Below, piece by piece: positions 20,640 to 26,396 of a stretch of DNA of 35,270 nt. Position numbers and translations under genes: made by a program. The stretch comes from an uncultured bacterium. Lineage in GTDB: Bacteria; Nitrospirota; Thermodesulfovibrionia; Thermodesulfovibrionales; CALJEL01. The first letter of the stretch is position 1, and every line of letters begins with the position of its first letter. A model generated the notes under the pieces. It was given only the letters and a program-made list of their open reading frames with translations, had not been told where the DNA came from and did no database searches. The stretch lies in contig CALJEL010000105.1 of NCBI GenBank assembly GCA_938074335.1, positions 1-35,270 on the forward strand. Direction: 5' to 3'.

Positions 20640-22509
20640 CTTTGCTTTGGTCTGACTTTAGTCTCTCAAGTATTAACTCTGCGGTCCTGACCCCTATGCT
20701 CGGGACCTTCTTATGTATCTCCTCAGGCGTTGCCTTTCTAATATTATCAAGACTTCCAAAGGTCCTGAGAAGCTCAAGTCTTCTTTTTGGACCAATCCCC
20801 GGTACCTCCTCAAGTCTTGATTCCTTGAGCCTCCTGTCTCTTATCTTTCTATGATACATTATAGCAAATCTATGAACCTCATCCCTTATCCTTCTTAGAA
20901 GAAGTCCTGCCTCCTCTTCAGGCCCTTTGAGGGATTCGAGATTGATTACCTTTCCGTTCAATAAAAAGACCCTGTCAGGATCCTTTGCAATGGATATCAA
21001 TAAAGGAGTCTTATTTAAAGTTTCTCTTTTCTGCTCAACAGCCCTTTTAAGAACTTCAAGCTGGCCCTGACCACCATCCACCATGAGGATATCAGGGATC
21101 TCTCCATTCAGATTATCTATAACCCTTCCTATTACCTCCTCAAGCATTTCATAATCATTTATGCCTTCTTCCTTTCTCACCCTCACACGCCTGTAGTGAT
21201 CCTTGAGAAACTGATCGGCCTGCCACCATACAAATCCTCCTGTTGATTCTCTTCCAGAGGTCGTAGATATATCAAAGGCGCCGATACTCTCAGGAGTTTG
21301 ATCAAGCTCAAGAATGTCCCTTAAAAGCTCCAGGACCCTTTCTGATTTTATCGCCTTTTCATCAAAATATACCCTTGCATTCTCCAGGGCCATCCTCAAA
21401 AGGTCCTCTTCTTCTTTATCGTCTGGCCTTTTTATTCTCACCATACCCCCTCTCTTTTCTGATAGCCACCTTTCAAGCATCTCTTTATTGTCAGGCTCTT
21501 CAGGCAGGACAATGATCTCAGGTGGTATTATCTCCTTTAAATAAAAGACCTCAAGGAATTCCTCAAGGAGTTCTTTAATTGGTGAAGAGGTGAAGGGGTG
21601 AATGGGTATATGTTTTTTTATAAAAAATTCCTTTTTACCAACAATCAATCCATTTCTCAAAAAGAGTATGGCGATGCTGAATCCGCTCTGAACTTCATAA
21701 ACTCCAACAATATCCATTTCCTCTTCTTTCATCGTGACAGCCCTCTGGGTCTCCCAGAGTCTCTTTAAGGCATTGATCCTGTCACGCACCCTGGCTGCCT
21801 CCTCATATCGCATCTCCTCTGCGTATTTATTCATCTTTTCTTCAAGACCCTGAAGAAGATCCTTCCTCTGACCTCTAAGAAAGAGTATTACCTCTGAAAG
21901 GGCCTTTTTATAGTCTTCCTCAGTAATAAGGTCTGCACAGGGAGCAGGGCATCTACCCATCTGATACTGGATACAGGGTTTCATAGGTTTGTCAAGTTTA
22001 TATTTACAGGGCCTTATGTTAAAATTTCTTCTTATAAATGATAGAGCCTCCCAGAGTACACCAGCAGGGACATAGGGACCAAAATACAAGGAGCCATCAT
22101 GCTTTATCCTTCTTGCTACCTCAAGATGGGGAAACCTTTCATTCATGACAATCTTTATATAAGGATAGTTCTTGTCATCCCTGAGGATTACATTGTATCT
22201 TGGCTTATACTGTTTTATTAAATTTGCCTCAAGGATAAGGGCCTCCACTTCATTCCGAGTAACAATAAAGGATATATCTTGAACCTCTTTTATGAGCCTT
22301 GATTTTCTAACATCGAGTTCCTCATGAAAATAATACCTGAGCCTCTGCCTGAGGTTTTTTGCCTTTCCAACATAAAGCACCTTCCCTGACTTCGACTTCA
22401 TGATATATACCCCGGGAAGTTCAGGCACCTGAGCAGTGTCTGCCTGCCCTGTAATGGGTAATTCGTAAGAGTGAGGCTGTGCGACAGTACGACAGTGCAA
22501 CCGTTTCAC
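20626..22509 (-). CDS. uvrC: Excinuclease ABC subunit C
   Basis: Makes both incisions in nucleotide excision repair with UvrA/UvrB. GIY-YIG nuclease domain: PGVYIMKSKSGKVLYVGKAKNLRQRL (residues about 33-58); four cysteines in PCKYKLDKPMKPC...GRCPAPC, the set known to bind an Fe-S cluster; UVR domain around EEKMNKYAEEMRYEEAARVRDRI; RNase H-like nuclease with GAFDISTTSGR; C-terminal helix-hairpin-helix VPGIGPKRRLELLRTFGSL. Length 627. The first 27 residues are written by dispersed repeats and have no family look: GTG at 22509 overlaps the murA stop, while an in-frame GTG at 22428 lies closer to the conserved start. Residues 301-310 (IPIHPFTSSP) are another repeat-coded insertion. Confidence 0.96.
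   Translation of the reverse strand: MKRLHCRTVAQPHSYELPITGQADTAQVPELPGVYIMKSKSGKVLYVGKAKNLRQRLRYYFHEELDVRKSRLIKEVQDISFIVTRNEVEALILEANLIKQYKPRYNVILRDDKNYPYIKIVMNERFPHLEVARRIKHDGSLYFGPYVPAGVLWEALSFIRRNFNIRPCKYKLDKPMKPCIQYQMGRCPAPCADLITEEDYKKALSEVILFLRGQRKDLLQGLEEKMNKYAEEMRYEEAARVRDRINALKRLWETQRAVTMKEEEMDIVGVYEVQSGFSIAILFLRNGLIVGKKEFFIKKHIPIHPFTSSPIKELLEEFLEVFYLKEIIPPEIIVLPEEPDNKEMLERWLSEKRGGMVRIKRPDDKEEEDLLRMALENARVYFDEKAIKSERVLELLRDILELDQTPESIGAFDISTTSGRESTGGFVWWQADQFLKDHYRRVRVRKEEGINDYEMLEEVIGRVIDNLNGEIPDILMVDGGQGQLEVLKRAVEQKRETLNKTPLLISIAKDPDRVFLLNGKVINLESLKGPEEEAGLLLRRIRDEVHRFAIMYHRKIRDRRLKESRLEEVPGIGPKRRLELLRTFGSLDNIRKATPEEIHKKVPSIGVRTAELILERLKSDQSKDDRD
21581..21608 (+). repeat. GGTGAAGAGGTGAAGGGGTG repeat in frame inside uvrC
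   Basis: The same GTGAA-type unit seen at 12580, 22504, 23901, 26461 and 34178 lies here inside uvrC, written on the + strand; on the coding strand it gives the residues IHPFTSSP just before the LLEEFL helix. Confidence 0.65.
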
Positions 22510-22522
22510 CCCTTCACCCTCT
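22479..22522 (+). repeat. Composite GTGCGACAGT + TTCACCCCTTCACC repeat at the murA/uvrC junction
   Basis: GTGCGACAGTACGACAGTGC (from 22479) runs into GTTTCACCCCTTCACC (from 22503). It carries the murA stop and the annotated uvrC start. Similar pieces occur at 26448-26488 and 35011-35030. Confidence 0.65.
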
Positions 22523-23765
22523 CTATCTCTGCACCAAGGGCCTGAAGTTTCAGCTCCATCCTTTCATATCCCCTGTCAAGATGATATACCCTGTCAATAA
22601 CAGTTTCTCCCTTAGCCCTCAGAGCAGCAATAACAAGACCTGCTGATGCCCTGAGATCTGAACTCATCACAGGAGCACCCCTTAATTCCTTCACGCCCTT
22701 CACAGTAGCAACAGGTCCCTCTGTAATAATATCAGCCCCGAGCCTTCTTAACTCTCCTACATGCATGAATCTGTTTTCAAATATGGTCTCACGAATAATA
22801 CTTGTTCCTTCAGCCACAGTCATGAGTGCCATGAACTGGGCCTGCACATCTGTGGGAAAACCTGGATAGGGCATGGTCTTTATGTTTACTGATTTAATGC
22901 GTTCAGGTCCTCTTGCATAAAGGGTATCATTTGCTTCTATTATCTCCATACCGGATTCTTTTAACTTTGCTATTACGGATTCAATGTGTTCAGGTATGAC
23001 ATTTTTAATTGTAATGTCTCCTCCTGTTATCCCTGCAACACAGAGAAAGGTAGCTGCCTCTATCCTGTCAGGTATTACCCTGTATTCTTTCAAGGGCTTC
23101 AGGTCAGAAACACCTTCTATTTCAATTATCTCTGTCCCGGCACCCTTTATCCTTGCACCCATCATGGAAAGGGCATTGGCAAGGTCAACAACCTCGGGTT
23201 CCTTTGCAGCATTCTCTATAATAGTAATTCCTTGAGCTAATGATGCAGCCATCAGGAGGTTTTCTGTACCTGTAACAGTAGGGACATCAAAATAAATCCT
23301 CGCACCTTTTAGCCTTCCTGAACTTGTTGCAGTTATATAACCGCCTTCAAGAACCATCTCAGCTCCCATAAGCCTCAGGCCTTCTATGTGAAGATTAACA
23401 GGCCTTGAACCTATGGCGCATCCACCAGGTAAAGAGACCCTTGCCCTACCATATCTTGCAAGAAGTGGTCCAAGAACAAGTATGGATGCCCTCATGGTCT
23501 TGACAAGTTCATAGGGTGCTTCAAGAAAAGAGACATTACTGGAATCTATCTCCAGTTTATCTTTGTTAAAAGAGACCTCTGCTCCAAAGGTCTGAAGTAA
23601 CATTGACATGGTGCGTATATCCCTGAGGTCTGGCACACCATTTATGCTATGACGGGAAGGACACAGGAGCGTTGCAGCCATCAGTGGAAGGGAGGCATTT
23701 TTTGCTCCACTTACAAAGACCGTGCCTGAAAGCCTTTTACCACCTCTTATGAGAAACTTATCCAT
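22506..23765 (-). CDS. murA: UDP-N-acetylglucosamine 1-carboxyvinyltransferase
   Basis: First committed step of peptidoglycan synthesis: transfers enolpyruvate from PEP to UDP-GlcNAc. Starts MDKFLIRGGKRLSGTV; GAKNASLPLMAATLL has Lys/Asn of the active site; LPGGCAIGSRPVNLHIEGL is the active loop. At the usual nucleophile position (Cys115 in E. coli, PGGCAIG) the Cys is present, so it should be fosfomycin sensitive. PGFPTDVQAQFMAL and DRGYERMELKLQALGAEIER are also typical. I set the start at 23765 because AAGGAG lies 6 bp upstream and 419 residues is the family length; an in-frame 69-codon extension to 23972 reads through repeats and is not credible. The final RVKG and stop come from a dispersed repeat. 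Confidence 0.96.
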   Translation of the reverse strand: MDKFLIRGGKRLSGTVFVSGAKNASLPLMAATLLCPSRHSINGVPDLRDIRTMSMLLQTFGAEVSFNKDKLEIDSSNVSFLEAPYELVKTMRASILVLGPLLARYGRARVSLPGGCAIGSRPVNLHIEGLRLMGAEMVLEGGYITATSSGRLKGARIYFDVPTVTGTENLLMAASLAQGITIIENAAKEPEVVDLANALSMMGARIKGAGTEIIEIEGVSDLKPLKEYRVIPDRIEAATFLCVAGITGGDITIKNVIPEHIESVIAKLKESGMEIIEANDTLYARGPERIKSVNIKTMPYPGFPTDVQAQFMALMTVAEGTSIIRETIFENRFMHVGELRRLGADIITEGPVATVKGVKELRGAPVMSSDLRASAGLVIAALRAKGETVIDRVYHLDRGYERMELKLQALGAEIERVKG

Positions 23766-23813
23766 AAGAAACTCCTTTTGTAACCCCGCAGGAATAATTA
23801 TTGATTTATTTAT

Positions 23814-23819
23814 ATTATA
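23814..23819 (-). promoter_or_regulatory. Likely -10 box of a promoter for murA
   Basis: On the minus strand TATAAT is found 48 bp before the murA start, just after an intrinsic terminator. No good -35 box is present at 16-18 bp, so the promoter is only probable. Confidence 0.4.
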
Positions 23820-23825
23820 CCCCCC

Positions 23826-23858
23826 AAAAAAGCTTTTAAGGAATAGAGGCTTAAAAGC
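23826..23858 (-). terminator. Intrinsic terminator behind the DUF4105 gene
   Basis: On the minus strand GCTTTTAAG and CTTAAAAGC form a perfect 9-bp stem with a 9-base loop, followed by TTTTTT. It lies downstream of the DUF4105 gene and upstream of murA, separating the two units. The stem is AT-rich, so efficiency may be moderate. Confidence 0.6.
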
Positions 23859-23862
23859 CTGA

Positions 23863-23935
23863 TTTGCCCTTAGAAAAGGGCAGGCTGCAGTGCAGTAGTT
23901 AGGTGAAGGGGTGAAGAGGTGAAGGAGTGAAAGAC
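23863..23935. repeat. Dispersed composite repeat upstream of murA
   Basis: Begins TTTGCCCTTAGAAAAGGGCA (a GCCCTT/AAGGGC hairpin), then GGCTGCAGTGCAGTAG and a run of GTGAAGGGGTGAAGAGGTGA. The first part recurs at 26416-26450 as TTTGCCATTAGAAAACTGGC followed by AGGCTGC...CAGTAG, which shows that the two are copies of one family. Confidence 0.65.
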
Positions 23936-23974
23936 TGCTGCACTGCTGGTCTGCTGCTCTATTTTTGGCCATAT

Positions 23975-25759
23975 TTAAAAATAAAGATTCAAGAGGATTT
24001 CTGCCTCTGTCCAGTATTCTGAATAAGACTTAGCCCTTGTTAAATTGACCCTGAAGGCAATATCATCAGTCATTGTATAATTCTGCTGGATAGAACTGGA
24101 ATAGAATTTATTTCTGTCACCAAGTTCATAAAACATAGCCTTCCCTGATATCTTGACCTTCCATCTGTCCGTTATATTCTTAAGAATACCTGCTGATAAT
24201 CCTATCCCGGCTGAATAATCTGCATCAAACCTTTTACTGAACCTGAGTTCTGATTCTGCAAAACCAAAATAAATGCCAGCTATTTTGTTTTCTTTAGCAA
24301 AGCCAAAGCCTGGATTTATAAGGTATAAGAGATGTTCCTTGCCATCCTGAAGGACTTCTCTTCCGATGCCACTATAGATCTTCCACGAAACAGGTTTAAA
24401 AAATTCATCCCTTATACCAAGAGAATCAACAAGATCATGATAGGCAGGCCTGAAGATTATACTTTGATAATATTCATTATCCCTGATTCCAACACCTGTA
24501 CTTATCTTTCCTGAGGCATGCCCCTCATCAGGTCTTGAGGGTGGCTGGATGCTGTACAGGGCAGCCTCAGGTCTTCCAAGATCTTTCCTGGCTGTCAGGA
24601 CATCAAGAAATCTTGTTTGATAGGTCTCTTTATCAATCTTCTGTCTCATAAATTTATACTGGGTCATCTCAGCAGCAATATCCAGTATGAGCATCCTCTT
24701 GGCATTGTTCATATCCTTATTCATAATATCCTGAGGAGAAAGGGTACCACCAGCTATTTTCATGGCTACGGCTCTATCTTCTTTATTAAGATATAAAGCC
24801 ATATGTTTTATCCTGGTTGATCTGGATGGTCTGTAGTGAATATCCCTGACAAGCCCCTTATTAATTACGAGCCTTACTGTATCAGAAGGTATAACCCATT
24901 GACCGAATTCATCTGTAAGATTAACCTCAGGTCTGGCAGCCTCTAATAGAAAAAGCAGATTGTAGGAACAGTTTTCATCAAAGAAATAATAATAGGAATA
25001 GATATCCTTCAATTCCCAGATATGAAAGACCATCCTCCTTACTTCTTCCTCGGTGAGATTCAATTCATATTCCCACATATCCCTCATATCAAGGTCATTG
25101 TATTCCTCTATCTTTTCGTAATAAGGAAGTATAGAAAAATATCCTTTAAAAAAACCGAAAAGACCCTTAATTAAATATGTTATTCCACCTTCATCACCGG
25201 TATTGGCAGCATAATTAATTGCATAGGACATAAGTTTACTCTTATAGGTGCTGTCTATTCTTATAAGCGTATGACCAAACATAGAGGCAGGGCTGTTCAT
25301 ATAGGCTGAGGGGAATACCAGGGTTGCTGATTTTGGATTAATGGCCTTTAAAAATTTTTCAAACTCAGGGCATGCGGAAGGTGGCATGAGGCTTTCATCG
25401 ATATTAAGGGTTTCTTTCAGCCATGTATATCTTGCAGGGAATCTACACCTGGGGTCTTCCTGCTCATTCTGGTATTCTTTAAAAAGAGAGTTTATTGTTT
25501 CTATTAATTCAGCCTCGGGGTCATTTTTACCTCTTGGAGAAATGAAAAAAGCAGGATCATCAACAAGGCTTTTTAGACCAGAAATACTCTTCTTATAATG
25601 AAGTAAGATGTACCAGTACCTTTCTTTATATATTTTTTTATCAATGGCCTTATTTATTAAATCCTGAAGATATATATTGTCTTCAGATGGATATATTATA
25701 GCAGGCACAAAAAATATAAAGAGGAGCATGAGCAATCCCACACCCCTCTTCATTATCAT
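23975..25759 (-). CDS. DUF4105 (Lnb-type N-terminal) envelope protein with beta-barrel-like C-terminus
   Basis: A signal peptide (MKRGVGLLMLLFIFFVPAIIYPS) is followed by the DUF4105 domain: FPSAYMNSPASMFGHTLIRID (residues about 150-170), SYAINYAAN, YEKIEEYNDLDMRDMWEYEL and YYFFDENCSYNLLFLLE. These fit a papain-like fold with conserved His and Cys. The last 200 residues are alternating amphipathic strands ending in LLNLYF, a terminal Phe as in outer-membrane barrels. Probable location: periplasm/outer membrane; function unknown. It begins 9 bp after the end of the original DUF3015 frame, so both formed a two-gene unit. No ribosome site is evident, fitting translational coupling, which the broken upstream gene may now weaken. 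ATG 25759 or 25753 possible. Confidence 0.85.
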   Translation of the reverse strand: MIMKRGVGLLMLLFIFFVPAIIYPSEDNIYLQDLINKAIDKKIYKERYWYILLHYKKSISGLKSLVDDPAFFISPRGKNDPEAELIETINSLFKEYQNEQEDPRCRFPARYTWLKETLNIDESLMPPSACPEFEKFLKAINPKSATLVFPSAYMNSPASMFGHTLIRIDSTYKSKLMSYAINYAANTGDEGGITYLIKGLFGFFKGYFSILPYYEKIEEYNDLDMRDMWEYELNLTEEEVRRMVFHIWELKDIYSYYYFFDENCSYNLLFLLEAARPEVNLTDEFGQWVIPSDTVRLVINKGLVRDIHYRPSRSTRIKHMALYLNKEDRAVAMKIAGGTLSPQDIMNKDMNNAKRMLILDIAAEMTQYKFMRQKIDKETYQTRFLDVLTARKDLGRPEAALYSIQPPSRPDEGHASGKISTGVGIRDNEYYQSIIFRPAYHDLVDSLGIRDEFFKPVSWKIYSGIGREVLQDGKEHLLYLINPGFGFAKENKIAGIYFGFAESELRFSKRFDADYSAGIGLSAGILKNITDRWKVKISGKAMFYELGDRNKFYSSSIQQNYTMTDDIAFRVNLTRAKSYSEYWTEAEILLNLYF

Positions 25760-25768
25760 TTAATAAAA

Positions 25769-26246
25769 TTAACTCTGTGATGTTATAGTTACGATGTTGT
25801 CAAGGACATCTGCTGCTTGCTTGAATATCTGTGGAAGTAAAGATATTTGAAAAGTTTGTCTGAAGCCTTGAATAAAATTCTGCTCTTTCCTGAAGTGGCA
25901 CTTCCATCAATTCTGCAAGTGTATCAAGGGTTTCACCATGACCTGCTGCTATATCCTTTGCAAGGTTATCCATGTTGTCTGCTATAAATTGATTGAGCTT
26001 TTCATTGCTTGCAATCTTCGTTGCCCTTTCACACTCTGATGTCCCTGTTGTAACACCAAAGGTCTGATTACCAAAAGTGCCATTTGTGGTTGCCTGAAGC
26101 GCTTGAAGAAGCCATTTGTCATCAGCGCTATCCTAAAATAGCATGGTCCCGAGACCGCAACCAACATTCCTTCTTGCCTGACCTGCTGCAAAGGCAGTGC
26201 TTGCAATAAATAAAGAAATAACCACTAAAATAAATATCCTCTTCAT
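25769..26246 (-). pseudogene. DUF3015 family exported protein, broken by an amber stop and a frameshift
   Basis: From ATG 26246 (AGGAGG just upstream) the frame reads a signal peptide MKRIFILVVISLFIASTAFA, then NVGCGLGTMLF, a family hallmark, then TAG at 26135-26133. Beyond the stop the same frame continues with family sequence: LQATTNGTFGNQTFGV, then KLNQFIADNMDNLAKDIAAG, TLAELMEV, FYSRLQTNFSNIFTSTDI. Near 25825 the frame slips: family-like AADVLDNIVTITSQS continues in another frame to TAA at 25769, while the original frame ends at 25800. Two independent lesions indicate a decayed gene. Normal DUF3015 proteins are about 150-160 residues. The role of DUF3015 is unknown. Sequencing error at one site cannot be excluded, but two would be needed. 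Confidence 0.82.
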
Positions 26247-26361
26247 CTTCTTCCTCCTTTTTACTGAGACCTATCAGCAGATATACTGATGGCTTTAATC
26301 TCGCGGAGATTAAAAATCCCCTCCTCTCTTATTTATCACCTCCTTTCCTGTTAAGGTTTAC
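26247..26361 (-). promoter_or_regulatory. Structured 5' leader of the DUF3015/DUF4105 unit
   Basis: About 115 nt between the predicted transcription start and the DUF3015 ATG. On the minus strand it contains AAAGGAGGTGAT (26346-26335), a full complement of the 16S 3' tail with no start codon at a suitable distance, a perfect 9-bp hairpin TTTAATCTC/GAGATTAAA (26294-26314) and a second hairpin ATCAG/CTGAT (26273-26290). I do not recognise a known riboswitch class. Confidence 0.45.
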
Positions 26362-26367
26362 ACTTAG

Positions 26368-26396
26368 ACTATATAAAAAAACATCGCTCCTGTCAA
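26368..26396 (-). promoter_or_regulatory. Strong sigma70-type promoter for the DUF3015/DUF4105 unit
   Basis: On the minus strand TTGACA (26396-26391) and TATAGT (26373-26368) are separated by exactly 17 bp: a perfect -35 and a 5 of 6 -10. Best promoter match I find in the window. Confidence 0.75.

Follow-up and report, generated by a model that had tools for sequence, protein, structure and literature searches.

According to the available excerpts of PMC12994826, DUF4105 is the lipoprotein N-acyltransferase Lnb of Bacteroides. The same excerpts place DUF4105 among the permuted clades of the NlpC/P60 superfamily, and suggest that it replaces Lnt generally. In the available part of PMC10318531, the function of DUF4105 is only guessed at. 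The domain is now called Lnb_N (PF13387). In the literature searched, DUF3015 is mentioned by name in a single paper, within an expression table; PF11220, the Pfam family DUF3015, appears in one further paper, and PF13387 was not found.

The window, a stretch of 35,270 nucleotides from an uncultured bacterium of the phylum Nitrospirota, contains a broken DUF3015 gene followed by a gene for an Lnb_N protein, hereafter the partner (Table 1). The genome from which it comes is a draft assembly of 116 contigs (2.22 Mb), and the observations below were made on assembled sequence. Very likely, the DUF3015 gene became a pseudogene recently, within a two-gene envelope operon that is decaying, and this would be a case of ordinary gene loss.

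Table 1. Features of the DUF3015-Lnb_N locus in the window
Feature	Position	Strand	Basis or remark
DUF3015 pseudogene, ATG 26246 to ancestral-frame TAA 25769	25769..26246	-	intact orthologue in G001
Sigma-70-like promoter, TTGACA-17-TATAGT, 11/12	26368..26396	-	upstream of DUF3015
Shine-Dalgarno-like AAAGGAGGAAGAAG	26247..26262	-	precedes DUF3015 ATG; read directly
In-frame TAG, codon 38	26133..26135	-	sense codon in all 83 aligned homologues
Tandem CAAG repeat, 4-bp excess relative to G001, frame shifted	25816..25823	-	alignment to G001
Terminator-like hairpin and T run, over partner start and signal-peptide codons	25716..25753	-	sequence
Partner gene, 594 aa: DUF7843, Lnb_N (formerly DUF4105) and shortened DUF7840	23975..25759	-	profile matches
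Junction of 114-bp in-frame deletion (38 codons) in partner	24424..24425	-	comparison with homologues

The partner shares with Lnb of Bacteroides the Lnb_N domain with its conserved His and Cys (192 bits against the cut-off of 22.2). In contrast to Lnb, the intact relatives of the partner have a C-terminal barrel, predicted to be 12-stranded, and a near-obligate DUF3015 neighbour, and Lnt is also present. The partner scores 17.7 bits against the NCBIfam Lnb equivalog (NF051878), whose cut-off is 550. The Lnt model matches at E of 0.001 or lower in 195 of 198 genomes of the phylum (187 over the cut-off), including the genome of the window, and in 71 of the 72 genomes with Lnb_N; the exception, G096, is 78% complete. 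Replacement of Lnt by the partner is ruled out here, since Lnt is present in the same genome. With the equivalog score far under its cut-off and Lnt present, any substrate named for the partner is a guess, and acyl chemistry at the outer membrane is proposed rather than the replacement of Lnt.

Pairing of DUF3015 and Lnb_N genes

The preliminary description had linked DUF3015 to DUF4105 and suggested for them an unknown envelope function. The linkage is strongly supported, but the function is not wholly unknown, as DUF4105 is now Lnb_N. In 81 of 83 DUF3015 loci (80 from named records and three from other genomes), DUF3015 is immediately followed by the partner gene in the same orientation; the remaining loci, L014 and L041, end at contig ends. 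Among the 198 genomes, 70 have both families, five have only DUF3015, two have only Lnb_N, and 121 have neither (Fisher p about 1e-44, with kinship between genomes ignored). DUF3015 is located within 2.5 kb upstream in 69 of the 79 places where Lnb_N was found in these genomes. These counts strongly support a near-obligate pairing. In the order to which the window belongs, DUF3015 is observed in 5 of 60 genomes and Lnb_N in 6 of 60. Such a sporadic distribution indicates that the unit is commonly lost or transferred.

The genomes with Lnb_N and no DUF3015 match are G039 and G115. In G039, a lipoprotein-like gene (L178:1221-1598) replaces DUF3015 ahead of Lnb_N. A PEGA-containing protein precedes Lnb_N in G030 (L177:1037-1681) and shows a partial DUF3015 match (E 2.6e-6); it is perhaps a fusion or a divergent form of the DUF3015 partner. 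The lipoprotein-like protein of G039 shows weak similarity to the NCBIfam subfamily of the G030 protein.

Lesions in the DUF3015 gene

The DUF3015 gene can be read from ATG 26244-26246, which AAAGGAGG precedes, through a signal peptide and the motif GCGLGTMLF. The promoter upstream was fairly described as strong. After the TAG, the same frame (frame 0) is open until TGA 25800-25802. The C-terminal sequence typical of the family, ADVLDNIVTITSQS, is found in frame +1, which ends at TAA 25769-25771, and the gap to the ATG (25757-25759) of the next gene is 9 bp. The preliminary description had given this reading, with TAG at codon 38, a second slip near 25825 and a TAA 9 bp ahead of the DUF4105 start, and it was borne out on each point; the slip is a +1 change at the CAAG repeat. 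It was also correct that the gene is hidden from ORF callers. The true frame is in none of the listed ORFs of at least 60 aa.

A profile search with the TAG read as X matched Pfam DUF3015 (PF11220) with E 3.9e-38 and 131 bits, against the cut-off of 25. The match covers 120 residues, and the GCG-G motif, NQTFG and both conserved Cys are retained. By profile the sequence belongs to the family, but the TAG and the frame change leave it without a complete open reading frame. As its frame is broken twice, it counts as a pseudogene within the family rather than as a working member. No second DUF3015 match was found in the 2.22-Mb assembly.

Comparison with a sister genome had been proposed, and in G001, the sole same-genus genome compared, DUF3015 is intact. 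Its open frame has 164 codons, and its product is 84% identical to that of the window gene over residues 1-144. In this alignment, the TAG is a single-codon difference. It falls in a variable column of the DUF3015 alignment, where the 83 homologues have E (27), K (26), G (9), A (8), D (5), Q (5), N (1), R (1) or P (1). The DUF3015 genes of G001, G002 and G027 are read through without any frame change, so a +1 frameshift is not a conserved trait.

The preliminary description had left programmed decoding as one option, in which amber readthrough (by a suppressor or pyrrolysine) and a +1 frameshift would together produce full-length DUF3015. Such decoding would fit the open frame 0 on either side of the TAG and the good conservation of the protein. 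It would, however, require two independent recoding events, and the TAG column is free of stops in the alignment of 83 homologues. TAG is also the terminator of 3 of the 33 ORFs counted in the window. The suggested check for amber suppressor tRNA and pyl genes was made on the draft assembly of 116 contigs, in a gap of which one could sit: ARAGORN called no CUA tRNA at any of the 41 places searched, the 40 tRNAs recovered include none, and the best PylS match reached 17.5 bits against the cut-off of 178. With no homologue having the stop, the 4-bp insertion absent from G001, and neither a CUA tRNA nor a PylS over the cut-off, programmed decoding is very unlikely.

A selenocysteine tRNA (TCA) is encoded in the same genome (G000:C97:21352-21444). 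Strong DUF3015 matches in G062, G096 and G055 appeared to share a conserved internal TAG. This candidate was rejected, as the DNA shows a normal final stop that was overrun by the match. A weak DUF3015 match in G116 was also flagged with one TAG, and the motif was not found in its locus, L168.

The neighbourhood bears on the possibility that the lesions are errors of assembly or sequencing and that the organism itself has an intact gene. Each of the 15 neighbouring ORFs, the partner included, has one collinear match in G001 with no stop or frameshift; the match of DnaB covers codons 1-118, where the G001 contig ends. A draft of 116 contigs could contain such errors, and the conserved residues of DUF3015 are otherwise kept. 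Nevertheless, three lesions of three types lie in a single pair of adjacent genes, and no stop or frameshift against G001 is seen in the 14 remaining ORFs of the neighbourhood. Such clustering disfavours random error, and we regard an intact gene behind an erroneous sequence as improbable. A mixture of strains would be a related explanation for any of the lesions. For the EPSP synthase-like ORF (22506-23972 of the window), the match in G001 starts only at codon 70. Translation of this ORF probably begins further downstream than at the ATG given for it.

The sequence retains signs of constraint. The pN/pS of DUF3015 against G001 is 0.17 over 143 codons, within the range of the 15 neighbouring ORFs (0.06-0.36), and the 23 most conserved positions are all kept except for one I-to-V change. 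Relative-rate counts found no clear excess of changes in the window lineage for either gene. For DUF3015, 4-8 amino-acid changes are unique to the window versus 4-6 unique to G001, depending on which of five outgroups is used. For the partner, the corresponding counts with six outgroups are 36-47 versus 27-41 (one chi2 of 4.5). Roughly 11 extra changes would be expected in DUF3015 if it had been free of constraint for a tenth of the branch, a value which serves as a guide only because dS is saturated. On this expectation, the loss probably took place within the last tenth of the branch. The recent decay proposed in the preliminary description is therefore upheld by the intact orthologue in the same genus, the two independent lesions, the low pN/pS and the conserved positions.

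Deletion in the partner gene and hairpins at the junction

The partner had been assumed to be intact, and this did not hold. The 38 codons lost in frame correspond to a segment that all 78 homologues compared have, at a length of 36-38 residues; the deletion is unique to the window. The partner of L006, an intact relative, was modelled with pLDDT 93.4 and pTM 0.88, and the model has 12 C-terminal strands. The DUF7840 part closes in the model as expected of an outer-membrane beta-barrel. The missing segment corresponds to residues 449-486 of L006 and, in the model, contains the strands 457-469 and 474-487, which would form one hairpin of the barrel.

No meaningful sequence match was found for the partner in PDB. 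Foldseek and VIA-align gave many matches between the DUF7840 part and outer-membrane barrels, such as NanC (Z 13.5, 4.0 A over 186 residues) and KdgM (Z 13.5, 3.9 A over 167). The predicted barrel fold is shared with the enzymes LpxR (Z 11.6, 4.6 A over 180) and OMPLA (Z 11.0, 4.7 A over 187). In the partner, unlike in OMPLA and LpxR, the candidate active site is located in a separate periplasmic domain. Since porins and the barrels of autotransporters reach equal or higher scores, the barrel matches indicate the fold only. Both the barrel topology and the enzymatic nature of the partner are predictions. The model of DUF3015 from L006 is of lower confidence (pLDDT 79, pTM 0.51, with an uncertain middle). 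A structural search with it gave no hit under E 0.001 (the best is 2.7), and a search of PDB found no sequence match for DUF3015.

The shortened partner may still work, because the deletion is in frame and the catalytic-type residues His163 and Cys264 are kept, in columns that are invariant in 55 sequences. It is possible, albeit rather unlikely, that only DUF3015 has been lost and that the partner works alone, perhaps with a 10-stranded barrel. The 594 codons contain no stop, only about one hairpin is gone, and Lnb_N occurs without a DUF3015 match in G039 and G115. Against this, the deleted segment is present in every homologue compared, and the pair is almost never split.

A hairpin followed by a T run lies at the junction of the two genes. 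G001, G002 and G027 have similar hairpins between the two genes, and overall they are observed in 45 of 82 junctions, including that of the window, often over the start region of the partner gene; 2.5 are expected from shuffled sequences. The controls showed 1 of 82, 1 of 81 and 5 of 82. In a second set of junctions, in which two loci are counted twice and whose species may overlap those of the first, the hairpins are found in 27 of 46, with 1.4 expected. By this excess over chance, the junction has the features of a putative intrinsic terminator. The stem sequences vary between species, indicating that the pairing is what is kept. Location of the start codon within the hairpin was dropped as a general rule, as an in-frame start is inside in only 15 of the 45. 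We infer that the hairpin may be a leaky terminator, by which the two products would be made in a set ratio.

Possible role of the pair and its loss

Intact DUF3015 would be a small exported protein with a signal peptide, two conserved Cys and a helical C-terminal half. The intact partner would be an outer-membrane protein, in which a periplasmic permuted-NlpC/P60 (Lnb_N) domain with His and Cys is followed by the 12-stranded barrel. The hairpin between the genes would probably let only part of the transcripts continue into the partner gene. From these features we infer that the pair may act as a unit of acyl transfer or acyl hydrolysis at the outer membrane, on a lipid or a lipoprotein. DUF3015 may be the dedicated partner of the Lnb_N protein, a role suggested by their linkage.

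In the lineage of the window, the premature TAG and the duplicated CAAG would have abolished DUF3015, and the 114-bp deletion would have taken one barrel hairpin from the partner; both genes would now be non-functional. We tentatively propose that DUF3015 and the barrel-bearing Lnb_N protein constitute an undescribed two-gene acyl-modifying machine of the outer membrane, whose stoichiometry would be set by the conserved leaky terminator and which would have been lost here as a unit.

The pseudogene itself is ordinary. It is useful because it points to an undescribed, near-obligate envelope pair of DUF3015 and Lnb_N, which is present in many Gram-negative lineages. The domain family of the partner has lately been linked to the acylation of lipoproteins, as described in the available excerpts of PMC12994826, yet the partner falls in a different subfamily with a predicted outer-membrane barrel. 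The natural loss in one species, together with the intact copy in the same genus, offers a clean comparison for the role of the pair.
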